A stretch of 24,002 nucleotides of DNA from a virus: positions 1 to 24,002 of IMG/VR virus record IMGVR_UViG_3300030099_004243; one strand, 5' to 3'. Below the pieces are notes generated by a model, which was not told the DNA's origin, did no database searches, and saw only the letters and a list, made by a program, of their open reading frames with translations. Position 1 is the first letter of the stretch, and the number at the start of each line of letters is the position of its first letter. Below are positions 3,306-9,703 of this stretch, one piece after another. The position numbers were made by a program, and so were the translations under genes.

Positions 3306-3359
3306 TTTTATCTAGTTTAGTTTTATTTTTTTTGTCAAGAAAACAATTTCAAAAAGTTC

Positions 3360-3417
3360 TGTTGATTTCAAACAAAACATGTTTACATTAGGTTCTCACC
3401 AAAATTAATAATCAACA
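3360..3417. repeat. 8-bp inverted repeat enclosing a 10-bp palindrome
   Basis: TGTTGATT at 3360-3367 is the exact reverse complement of AATCAACA at 3410-3417. Between them lies the perfect palindrome AAACATGTTT at 3375-3384, which falls inside the spacer of the candidate promoter. The arrangement could be an operator or a long-range stem in the leader of the following gene. Chance is a real alternative at these lengths in AT-rich DNA. Confidence 0.25.
3362..3389 (+). promoter_or_regulatory. Weak candidate sigma70-type promoter before the small ORF
   Basis: TTGATT (3362-3367) and TACATT (3384-3389) are separated by 16 nt, each matching the -35/-10 consensus at four of six bases. They lie in the 122-nt gap (3306-3427) between the fibre operon and the cysteine-tailed ORF, at the right distance for an RNA carrying the AGGAG at 3417-3421. 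In sequence this AT-rich such matches arise easily by chance, so this is tentative. The rest of the gap is T-rich and shows no convincing terminator hairpin. Confidence 0.2.
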
Positions 3418-3427
3418 GGAGACAAAT

Positions 3428-3586
3428 ATGGATAATCAAGATTTAAATAAAGCCATTGCCTACCTTGCAGATAAGGTGAGCAAATATCACGAAAGACTAT
3501 TAGCAGTAGAAAGAGACGTTAAAAGACATGAAAAAAATGCTGAACAGCATTGTTGTGATGATTGCACTTGTAAAAAATCTAATTAG
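3428..3586 (+). CDS. 52-aa protein with C-terminal cysteine cluster
   Basis: A short ORF with a strong AGGAG (3417-3421) six bases before ATG and no overlap with a larger credible gene. The product is a charged, probably helical segment (DLNKAIAYLADKVSKYHERL, then AVERDVKRHEKNAEQ) followed by HCCDDCTCKK. The four Cys and one His in ten residues look like a small metal-binding or redox knuckle. Similar tiny helix-plus-Cys-tail proteins occur in other marine phages as far as I recall, but I know no assigned function. Its last 16 bases, including the TAG stop, lie within the upstream copy of the 43-bp direct repeat that precedes the oxygenase gene. Confidence 0.55.
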   Translation: MDNQDLNKAIAYLADKVSKYHERLLAVERDVKRHEKNAEQHCCDDCTCKKSN

Positions 3587-3613
3587 GAGTAGAATCTAAG
3601 ATATCTTTTAATG
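3571..3613. repeat. 43-bp imperfect direct repeat, copy A
   Basis: This segment aligns without gaps with 4242-4284, with 39 of 43 bases identical. It ends exactly on the ATG of the oxygenase at 3611. Read on the minus strand it encodes P-LKDILDSTPN-stop, clearly related to the C-terminus PSLKDMLGSTPK-stop of the minus-strand gene ending at 4250. Copy A is therefore a decayed duplicate of that gene's 3' end, and the two copies bracket the oxygenase gene. Confidence 0.85.
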
Positions 3614-4234
3614 GAAAAGTTTAAATATTTTGTAGACGCAATATTTCCTGTACCTGTTTATTATTCATATGATGTAAAGAATTTCACAAAAAGTGAGTTA
3701 GATTCTGTAGAGAAACACAGAGAAGAAACGTATGGAAATGCTGGAAATATTACTAGCAATAATACGTATATTCTGGAAACAAAACCTTTTGAAAAATTAA
3801 AAAATATTTTGTTAGATCATGTTAACGAATATTTGAAAGTAATACATGCTCCAGAAAATAAAGATTTAAAACTTTATATTACTCAATCATGGTTAAATTA
3901 TACAAACAATAATCAATTTCATCATGCACACTCTCATCAAAATTCTTTTATATCTGGAGTACTGTACATAAAAGCTAATGAAAATGTTGACAGCATTTCA
4001 TTTGCAAAGACAGTTGAAGACAGTGTACGTATAATATCTAAAAATTATGGAATTTTTAACTCTTCAGAATCAATGAAACAAATTAAAACTGGAATGTTAA
4101 TTCTTTTTCCTTCTAGTCTTACACATGGTGTAGAAATAAAAAAAGATAATGAAGAAAGAATAAGCTTAGCTTTTAACACATACTTTAAAGGAACTTTAGG
4201 AAGTGCAAAAAGTTTAACAGAATTAAAACTATAG
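3611..4234 (+). CDS. Putative 2OG-Fe(II) oxygenase
   Basis: A 207-aa protein of the small putative 2OG-Fe(II) oxygenase type common in marine phages (the PF13759 group, by recall). Visible signatures are an HxH-containing strand FHHAHSHQNSFISGVLYI (His 104, 105, 107 and 109) and GMLILFPSSLTHGVEI with the distal His172. EERISLAFN follows, with Arg183 as the likely 2-oxoglutarate contact. The fold is a double-stranded beta-helix hydroxylase, and the substrate is unknown. This is the only member on the plus strand, the only one with the run of extra histidines, and the only one flanked by 43-bp direct repeats. Its ATG is the last triplet of the upstream repeat. No Shine-Dalgarno lies in the 20 bases before it, because the nearest GGAG is about 22 bases away. 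It ends 15 nt before the convergent gene. It looks like a separately acquired cassette. Confidence 0.75.
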   Translation: MEKFKYFVDAIFPVPVYYSYDVKNFTKSELDSVEKHREETYGNAGNITSNNTYILETKPFEKLKNILLDHVNEYLKVIHAPENKDLKLYITQSWLNYTNNNQFHHAHSHQNSFISGVLYIKANENVDSISFAKTVEDSVRIISKNYGIFNSSESMKQIKTGMLILFPSSLTHGVEIKKDNEERISLAFNTYFKGTLGSAKSLTELKL

Positions 4235-4241
4235 CAAATTA

Positions 4242-4284
4242 TAAAAAATCTACTTAGGAGTAGAACCTAGCATATCTTTTAATG
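4242..4284. repeat. 43-bp imperfect direct repeat, copy B
   Basis: Partner of 3571-3613 (39 of 43 identical, same orientation, 671 bp apart). In this copy the sequence is functional coding DNA. It contains the last codons and the TAG stop of the 83-aa minus-strand gene. A 3-nt insertion relative to copy A (ATGATGG against ATGG) begins right after the repeat, where similarity ends. The four differences inside the repeat give one synonymous and three amino-acid changes in the minus-strand reading. Confidence 0.85.
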
Positions 4285-4501
4285 ATGGAGCAAATACTTT
4301 AATATCTCGTCTAATTTTTTCAGCGGTTGTTGAAGTGTTTGGATCATCTATATCTGATTGCATAGCTTCCTCAGATTCATATTCTTGACCTGTATCTATA
4401 TTAGTAATTGTCGTTTCAGTTTTTACGTTGTATTTAGGAACAACTCTACCATCTTGTAATGTTACTGTTCCTATTTGCTCTGCATTTTTAATTATCGGCA
4501 T
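4250..4501 (-). CDS. Conserved hypothetical phage protein (83 aa)
   Basis: A soluble 83-aa protein. The N-terminal half is a possible beta-hairpin (GTVTLQDGRVVPKYNVKT), followed by ITNIDTGQEYESEEAMQSD and the acidic stretch DIDDPNTSTTAEKIRRD. I recognise the ITNIDTG-x-EY...DIDDPNT...IRRD pattern from short hypothetical proteins scattered through marine phage genomes, but I know no function. GGAG lies just upstream of the ATG. The start overlaps the end of the next upstream oxygenase gene by 14 nt, so it belongs to the same minus-strand operon and is its last gene. Its 3' end exists a second time, decayed, at 3571-3613. Confidence 0.6.
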   Translation of the reverse strand: MPIIKNAEQIGTVTLQDGRVVPKYNVKTETTITNIDTGQEYESEEAMQSDIDDPNTSTTAEKIRRDIKVFAPSLKDMLGSTPK

Positions 4502-5078
4502 TTTCTCTCCAATTTATATTAAAACTTAAAATAACTCTGTCCTCATTAGAGCTATTTGTTTTCACCTCATGTTGTAACCATGATGGGAAAAAAATCAATG
4601 AATTTTCTTTTGGTTCAAAATCTACGCTGTGTGCAGTGTATACAGAGGCCTCTTTTCTCTTTGGGGGTGATAACACCTCTGCTTGTGGTTTTGGCTCTAG
4701 AAACACTAAATTACCGCTTTTTTGAGGCACTTTTAGGTAATAAACTCCTGACAGATAATTATACGGATGTGTGTGCACATTATTTCTAGATCCTGGAGGA
4801 TTAATCATACCCCATAAACCTGTCATTTCTGGAACATATTTTTCTTGTACATCTAAATGATCAAAGCATTCTTTTGCTTTTAATAATATATCCCCAACAG
4901 TGCTTTTAAATTCTACCTCTTTGTATAATTCATCATGACTATGCCAGCCTCCAATATTAGATCTAGGCATCCCTTTTTCATCTCTAGCTTTTATTTCGTA
5001 AAGTCGATCCACTAAGTGACCGTGGCCTTTAATCTCTGTCATCATGACAGGCGTAATAAATAATGATTGTAATTTCAT
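4488..5078 (-). CDS. Putative 2OG-Fe(II) oxygenase
   Basis: A 196-aa protein with all the usual marks of the small phage 2OG-Fe(II) oxygenase group. These are SNIGGWHSHDELY (residues 40-52), GMINPPGSRNNVHTH followed by PYNYLSGVYYLKVP with the HxH iron ligands at His102 and His104, NSLIFFPSWLQHEV with the distal His170, and DRVILSFNINW with Arg181 for 2-oxoglutarate. The length is normal for the family and no residue appears to be missing. The predicted reaction is hydroxylation coupled to decarboxylation of 2-oxoglutarate. The substrate is unknown, and virion protein, glycan or nucleic acid all remain possible. The ATG has AAAGG six bases upstream. It lies between a structural gene and the 83-aa hypothetical gene, in an operon that encodes virion proteins. 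Confidence 0.85.
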   Translation of the reverse strand: MKLQSLFITPVMMTEIKGHGHLVDRLYEIKARDEKGMPRSNIGGWHSHDELYKEVEFKSTVGDILLKAKECFDHLDVQEKYVPEMTGLWGMINPPGSRNNVHTHPYNYLSGVYYLKVPQKSGNLVFLEPKPQAEVLSPPKRKEASVYTAHSVDFEPKENSLIFFPSWLQHEVKTNSSNEDRVILSFNINWRENADN

Positions 5079-9031: not shown

Positions 9032-9703
9032 TTATTTTGAGACAATTTTTTTAACTAGATTAAGGTTGAAAGAAACTGATCTTCTTTCCTCGTTTGGAGT
9101 TCTAAAAGGATAAACCATATGAGATAGCCATGCAGGAAATAAATATATATTTCCAACTTCAGGTGTTGCTTGAAAAGCATGTCCGTTAAAAGTTGCTGCT
9201 TGACCACATTCCCATTGTATATCTCCTACACATGGATGATGATCCTCTTTAGCGTATTCCTCTTTTAAACTAGGAGGTATTCTTAAATAAATTACACCTG
9301 ATAAATCTCCATCGTGAATATGTGATGGATTAAAATCACCTGCCCACTGAGATACTACCCACATGCTTTGTAAGACCATTCTATCAACATCTTTTGGTTG
9401 TATAGTATCCGACGCAGGAGGATGAGATATATATTTTTCAACTATAATTTTTAAAGCTTGAAGACATGGTTGAAACTCACTTGAATCTAAAAATGTCGGA
9501 GGATATCTTACTTCTTGTTTAACATTTCCCGCTAAATGCATGGAATGATCCCATTCTTTTGATAATTTTTCATCATTGAATAATTCATCTGCTTTGGAAT
9601 CAAGTAGTTTTATAATACTATCTGGTAAACTTCCTTTAAAAATAGTGGGTCCGAAGGGTCTGTAAGCCTGAAACTCTATTTTGTTATTTAAATCAGTCGC
9701 CAT
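9032..9703 (-). CDS. Putative 2OG-Fe(II) oxygenase, first gene of the minus-strand operon
   Basis: A 223-aa protein of the same broad group as the genes at 4488-5078 and 3611-4234. It reads QSMWVVSQWAGDFNPSHIHD with His128 and His130 as iron ligands, then GDLSGVIYLRIP. NIYLFPAWLSHMVYPF carries the distal His195, and NEERRSVSFNLNLV carries Arg207/208 for 2-oxoglutarate. An insertion between the strands (residues about 145-175, with DHHPCVGDIQWECGQ and NGHAFQATPE) is longer than in its relatives and could shape the substrate pocket. It is the first gene after the divergent promoter region. Its ribosome binding site is weak (AAAAAGA before ATG). Confidence 0.85.
   Translation of the reverse strand: MATDLNNKIEFQAYRPFGPTIFKGSLPDSIIKLLDSKADELFNDEKLSKEWDHSMHLAGNVKQEVRYPPTFLDSSEFQPCLQALKIIVEKYISHPPASDTIQPKDVDRMVLQSMWVVSQWAGDFNPSHIHDGDLSGVIYLRIPPSLKEEYAKEDHHPCVGDIQWECGQAATFNGHAFQATPEVGNIYLFPAWLSHMVYPFRTPNEERRSVSFNLNLVKKIVSK

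Follow-up and report, generated by a model that had tools for sequence, protein, structure and literature searches.

The 43-bp direct repeats that flank a 2OG-Fe(II) oxygenase gene in this phage genome fragment are most plausibly the product of two staggered microhomology joins that overlap, made by illegitimate recombination or by a template switch, rather than an att site. In the account that we favour, the seam between two small neighbouring genes would serve as a cargo slot, the oxygenase gene would have been captured there through microhomology from an operon in a second slot, the junction would have been duplicated and its spare part would have decayed, and homologous exchange would have followed. 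We assign this account as a whole a probability of about 0.74.

Sequence data and comparison set

The window is the entire virus record IMGVR_UViG_3300030099_004243, a genome fragment of 24,002 bases. The named phages with the closest family A DNA polymerase (PolA) are 023Pt_psg01 (54% identity), DSL-LC04 (52%) and HTVC023P (52%), and the window is therefore treated as a relative of the HTVC023P-type pelagiphages, a placement made by PolA identity without a tree.

Relatives of the region were metagenome contigs, none of them an isolate, fetched by means of either of the two small genes, of 83 and 52 amino acids, that adjoin the oxygenase gene. Occupancy of the site was measured as the stop-to-stop distance between the 52-aa and the 83-aa gene in 73 distinct haplotypes. 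The region gave no DNA match to named phage genomes, and oxygenase homologues in those genomes reached about 39% identity at best. A scan of bacterial and archaeal genome contigs, which reaches close relatives only, gave no useful oxygenase homologue and one partial match at 31%.

The repeats and the adjoining genes

The following features define the site:

3428..3586, plus strand: 52-aa gene with the end HCCDDCTCKKSN; conserved left neighbour of the cargo slot and homologous anchor, with 141 relatives in viral contigs
3571..3613, no strand: left repeat; original convergent junction, in which the 52-aa gene (plus strand) has its live 3' end and the 83-aa gene (minus strand) a dead one, LKDILDSTPN-stop
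3611..4234, plus strand: cargo, a predicted 2OG-Fe(II) oxygenase of 207 aa; matches PHROG 81 (E=2e-39) and PF13759 (E=8e-21)
4242..4284, no strand: right repeat; here the 83-aa gene (minus strand) has its live 3' end, next to a dead stub of the 52-aa gene end; holds the later breakpoint
4250..4501, minus strand: 83-aa gene; conserved, adjoins the cargo slot on the right; homologous anchor, with 208 relatives in viral contigs

By its profile matches the cargo is a 2OG-Fe(II) oxygenase: PF13759 is matched with 74.7 bits against a curated cut-off of 27, and H105, H107 and H172, in the active-site region, are among the columns that are invariant in four homologues. The 83-aa gene had no match in Pfam or PHROG.

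PHROG 81 is matched by three genes of the window (3611-4234, 4488-5078 and 9032-9703). An origin of the cargo by local duplication of a neighbouring oxygenase was rejected, as its identity to the genes at 4488-5078 and 9032-9703 is 26-27% in partial alignments. The gene at 8250-8762 matches PHROG 274, named DNA endonuclease V, which is also weakly matched by the oxygenase at 4488-5078, and this PHROG name may be a misnomer. Elsewhere in the window, three copies of a 95-nt repeat (64-77% identical) are found at 537-979, inside a 306-aa gene (462-1382) that probably encodes a repetitive structural protein.

A preliminary description of this DNA had reported the repeats around the oxygenase gene, and both the recount and the profile matches agree with it: 3571-3613 and 4242-4284 form an ungapped direct repeat with 39 of 43 bases identical. 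A repeat search lengthens the pair to 41 of 46 (3568-3613 and 4239-4284). Under a simple composition model, the chance of at least 39 identities in 43 at one position pair is about 2e-18, which gives an expectation of about 7e-10 such pairs over the window as a whole.

Read on the minus strand, the left copy gives LKDILDSTPN-stop and the right copy LKDMLGSTPK-stop. This confirms by translation that the left copy still encodes the former peptide, and the minus-strand 83-aa gene does have its true 3' end in the right copy. The oxygenase ATG had been placed in the last triplet of the left repeat, where it is found (3611-3613). We considered and dropped the idea that this start codon was borrowed from the repeat; the nearest homologous oxygenases begin at the same ATG as the window gene, and therefore the repeat alone does not supply it.

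The left copy had also been called a decayed gene end, which is true of its 83-aa half; the 3' end of the 52-aa gene in the same copy is live. On these reading frames, what was duplicated is a junction between two convergent genes and not just one gene end, because the left copy also carries that live 3' end, and the left copy reads as the original junction.

Four positions differ between the copies. Three of them are amino-acid changes of the left copy in the 83-aa frame (Met to Ile, Gly to Asp and Lys to Asn), at codons kept in live relatives except for three haplotypes that were put out of register by the motif search; the remaining one, a C in the right copy, is synonymous. In this small sample of 4 sites, either copy has changed silently or where its live gene should tolerate change. 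Both copies carry an uncommon Ser codon (GSTPK), where most relatives have Gln or Glu, and therefore one lineage gave rise to both. The base difference between 3570 and 4241 was considered as decay of the 52-aa stub and rejected, since by comparison with the source operon described below 4241 is probably source sequence.

Occupancy of the site in relatives

The site is empty in 40 of the 73 haplotypes, in which the 83-aa and 52-aa genes converge with their ends overlapping by 4, 8 or 11 nt. An insert lies between the genes in 33, and in 31 of the 73 haplotypes it is cargo other than that of the window. These other cargoes of the site, called slot 1 here, are unrelated to one another in several cases. 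Among them are 2OG-Fe(II) oxygenases of other types, a gene with a DUF6445 match and a carbamoyltransferase; several have no Pfam match. The carbamoyltransferase is a cargo of about 1.46 kb (L052, L019, L025, L059, L106, L130 and L149), with its N- and C-terminal domains in two separate reading frames.

Both groups support the earlier proposal that a cassette entered at a gene end and duplicated the junction. The comparison suggested with that proposal was also carried out: genomes with a single junction and no oxygenase are the 40 empty-site haplotypes, and as for other cargo between the repeats, other cargo does occur at the site, but none of it is flanked by the repeat.

In the 31 other filled haplotypes, no ghost of the junction stood clearly above shuffled controls (best scores about 22). 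With the cargo of the window, the junction-duplication scores are 62 and 56 against a shuffle maximum of 23. This cargo is present on two other contigs as well, the duplicated junction is found only with it, and a 46-bp degenerate repeat pattern occurs only in the two contigs having it. Since the repeat is absent around other cargo and the pattern is restricted to one cargo, the duplication marks one event and not the site. The insertion is seen once, and both other contigs carrying the cassette inherit the same insertion.

Neither of the findings that had been named as telling against the proposal was obtained: having two copies is not universal among relatives, and the repeat is no conserved leader with a regulatory role. 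A regulatory element (leader or terminator) on both sides of the gene would explain why the repeat is present at either end, yet relatives have a single copy and this copy is coding sequence of two gene ends. Folding of either copy is at most slightly better than in shuffles (z from -1.15 to 0.35), the terminator scan was empty within the repeat, and its sole promoter-like match (3568-3595) is a weak 9-of-12 in a region without excess over shuffles; we regard such an element as highly improbable.

Short repeats can cause mis-assembly, and an assembly or chimera artefact could have arisen in this way. However, the same structure is found in contigs of metagenomes 3300030330 and 3300012920, one of them with diverged flanks, and the two copies have diverged along functional lines, so that we give this explanation hardly any weight.

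Likely source of the oxygenase gene

The profile search identified six nearest oxygenase homologues with 61-72% identity, at loci L169-L174. In all six the gene is a member of an operon, between genes of 233-235 aa and 195 aa. Relatives of the 83-aa and 52-aa genes are on the same DNA stretch in five of them (L169 and L171-L174), and L170 is a shorter stretch with the same operon. Among the loci of 80 homologues, these five are the only ones, besides that of the window's cargo, to carry 83-aa or 52-aa relatives. In L169 and L171, which were read in detail, the operon lies beyond the 52-aa gene, in a second slot that precedes a minus-strand gene further on. The operon oxygenase overlaps both of its neighbours, with its start within TAATG and its end within ATGA.

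Two features of the window correspond to this operon:

3306..3427, no strand: slot 2, which holds no cargo in the window; conserved intergenic block that precedes the 52-aa gene, with cargo genes behind it in relatives, among them the likely source operon
4235..4244, plus strand: CAAATTATAA, footprint left by the first bases of the gene after the oxygenase in the operon; 9/10 match in register to TAAATTATAA of L169

A 9/10 match level of CAAATTATAA is attained at 1.5e-4 of genome positions. Because CAAATTATAA resembles the start of the next operon gene, the insert looks as if it were cut from the operon of a sister phage and placed opposite relative to the 83-aa gene. The source of the cargo is probably, from this homology, the slot-2 operon of a sister phage. 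Slot 2 is empty in the window, and therefore the source could be another phage or the same genome before loss of the operon.

The block at 3306-3427 is strongly conserved in relatives (L003-L163), and ends with TTGTTTTCTTGACA followed by a TATGTTATA-like stretch. It is apparently a putative promoter that drives the changing cargo genes of relatives. For the cargo itself, no promoter or terminator of its own was identified by a consensus scan, which gave no excess over shuffles and has phage-specific promoter types outside its range.

The source operon bears on 3'-end att-site use, one of the two routes that had been proposed. In such a site-specific integration the 43-bp copies would be attL and attR at a gene end, with an integrase, a satellite or another recombinase acting in trans, and the location at a gene end, the near-perfect flanking direct repeat and the restored gene end are all att-like. 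However, the repeat is found in 0 of the 31 other filled haplotypes, which hold cargo at the same site, and the 46-bp pattern is confined to two contigs with the window's cargo. Moreover, the cargo is a single oxygenase gene with no recombinase, and both ends of the insert match an ordinary sister-phage operon. The att proposal is therefore disfavoured, and we consider it quite improbable. The accompanying statement that no recombinase gene is nearby stands, as none was recognised among the translated ORFs of the window, itself a genome fragment, or among 18 Pfam-scanned proteins.

The insert is flanked by a direct duplication of resident sequence, as a transposon-like insertion with a long target-site duplication would be. 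The target duplications made by transposases are usually shorter than the 43 bp found here, however, and the insert has no transposase gene; instead of running to element ends, it breaks off within the first bases of the following operon gene. A transposon-like origin is scarcely credible on this evidence.

The joins and the proposed capture of the gene

The two joins between source-operon DNA and the junction were placed as follows:

3608..3613, plus strand: TTAATG, left join; common to the junction sequence and to the oxygenase start (stop-start overlap with the preceding operon gene), from an alignment of the window, the right copy and L169-L171
4242..4244, plus strand: TAA, right join of source-operon DNA and junction; source homology extends up to 4244 and junction homology begins at 4242

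The homology profile switches between source and junction at TTAATG (6 nt) and at TAA (3 nt), so that short matches are found at both joins, and the ends of the repeat, picked earlier from the sequence alone, coincide with these switch points. The joins are reconstructed from homologues, because the nearest source sequence is only 72% identical, and matches of 6 and 3 nt in AT-rich DNA are, taken alone, weak evidence for microhomology joins. Recombination through short homology, the other route proposed in the preliminary description, fits these data, since the likely source operon shares a short match with the junction at each join.

In the proposed course of events, the 83-aa/52-aa seam would serve as a cargo slot in an HTVC023P-type relative. 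The oxygenase gene would have been copied from the slot-2 operon of a sister phage and inserted at the seam in the opposite direction, through either microhomology-mediated illegitimate recombination or a template switch in replication. At the left join the match would have been TTAATG, which occurs both at the start of the oxygenase gene and in the antisense of the 83-aa gene end; at the right join it would have been TAA, present where the following operon gene begins and where the 52-aa gene ends. With the second join about 43 nt back from the first, the seam would be copied twice, and therefore both neighbour genes would be left with one undamaged end that selection could maintain, and the redundant half of the left copy would decay. 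Finally, homologous recombination in the genes on either side exchanged the finished cassette, with both repeats, between phages that had diverged. The comparisons show the empty site, the other cargoes, the duplication and its decay, the context and footprint of the source operon, and the later swap. The exact chemistry of the joins, the order of the steps and the role of selection are what we infer here; template switching, staggered-end joining and two separate crossovers leave an identical product.

A two-step route, in which the junction was first duplicated in tandem, or within a larger tandem segment, and the oxygenase later replaced the spacer, yields an identical final order. The common Ser codon, pointing to one lineage for both copies, fits this route and staggered microhomology joins equally well. 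Yet a cargo-free duplicated junction was found in 0 of 73 haplotypes, and the route does not require the repeat ends to fall at the source/junction switch points, with which they nevertheless coincide. We therefore consider it unlikely.

Later spread of the cassette

The same cassette in L002 differs from that of the window at 0 of 113 positions in 3501-3613, at 5 of 628 in 3614-4241 and at 29 of 217 in 4285-4501, within the 83-aa gene. The fitted breakpoint between the two is at 4249-4283, inside the right repeat, and to the left of the 52-aa gene the match is soon lost. With a near-identical cassette, diverged flanks and a breakpoint in the right repeat, the finished cassette therefore moves by homologous recombination via the conserved gene ends. 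Other slot-1 cargoes are likewise independent of their flanks (L067/L079 and L031/L047).

The 52-aa gene in L003-L163 seems to be mosaic, with varied N- and C-terminal versions around a conserved middle, as if crossovers had occurred inside the gene. Tentatively, and with considerable doubt, the two slots beside the 52-aa gene may be a cargo-exchange locus, where small genes persist partly as homology anchors and rare entry by microhomology is followed by homologous spread; the window would then represent an early stage, with the spare junction still untrimmed.

Relation to known systems

Phage morons are cargo genes inserted between genes that adjoin in relatives (PMC3029335). The present case is similar in that one extra gene, variable in its presence, lies between genes contiguous in relatives (the 40 empty-site haplotypes), and differs in that the cargo comes with a duplicated landing site and footprints of its source operon. 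Phage mosaicism has been explained both via short conserved boundary sequences and via illegitimate recombination (PMC3029335, PMC2327257). In line with these models, the initial uptake of the gene has the look of an illegitimate event, and its subsequent spread that of homologous recombination in the conserved ends of the flanking genes. What differs is that both stages are legible at one locus here, with the breakpoint placed within 35 bp in the repeat.

In T4-type phages, mobile regulatory cassettes were reportedly described by Arbiol et al. in 2010, with small cargo genes shuffled between shared flanking sequences. Slot 1 resembles these cassettes in shuffling small cargo between shared flanks, but what is shared here is the coding sequence of gene ends in place of a promoter/terminator motif. 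The resemblance is closer for slot 2, where a promoter-like block is conserved.

According to parts of one source, HTVC023P-type pelagiphages have eight 2OG-Fe(II) oxygenase gene types, often near one another in the genome (PMC9599517). The window belongs to a related group and has the same expanded superfamily of non-orthologous 2OG-Fe(II) oxygenases as described in those parts; two cargo slots and a duplication are not among their descriptions of these phages. The case is a well-documented new instance of a known event, a moron in a mosaic genome, and not a new kind of system, although its footprint is unusually complete.

As a rule, the boundaries from which the first entry of a single gene into a phage genome has to be inferred are clean and old. 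At the present locus one can read how the site looks when empty, which operon probably supplied the gene, where the two joins fall, that the target was duplicated and that a homologous swap came later. The case is of value because capture and spread are separable at one site. The locus supports a two-stage model in which rare illegitimate capture is followed by homologous spread. The site is small and well sampled, and the two-stage model could be measured there in marine populations.
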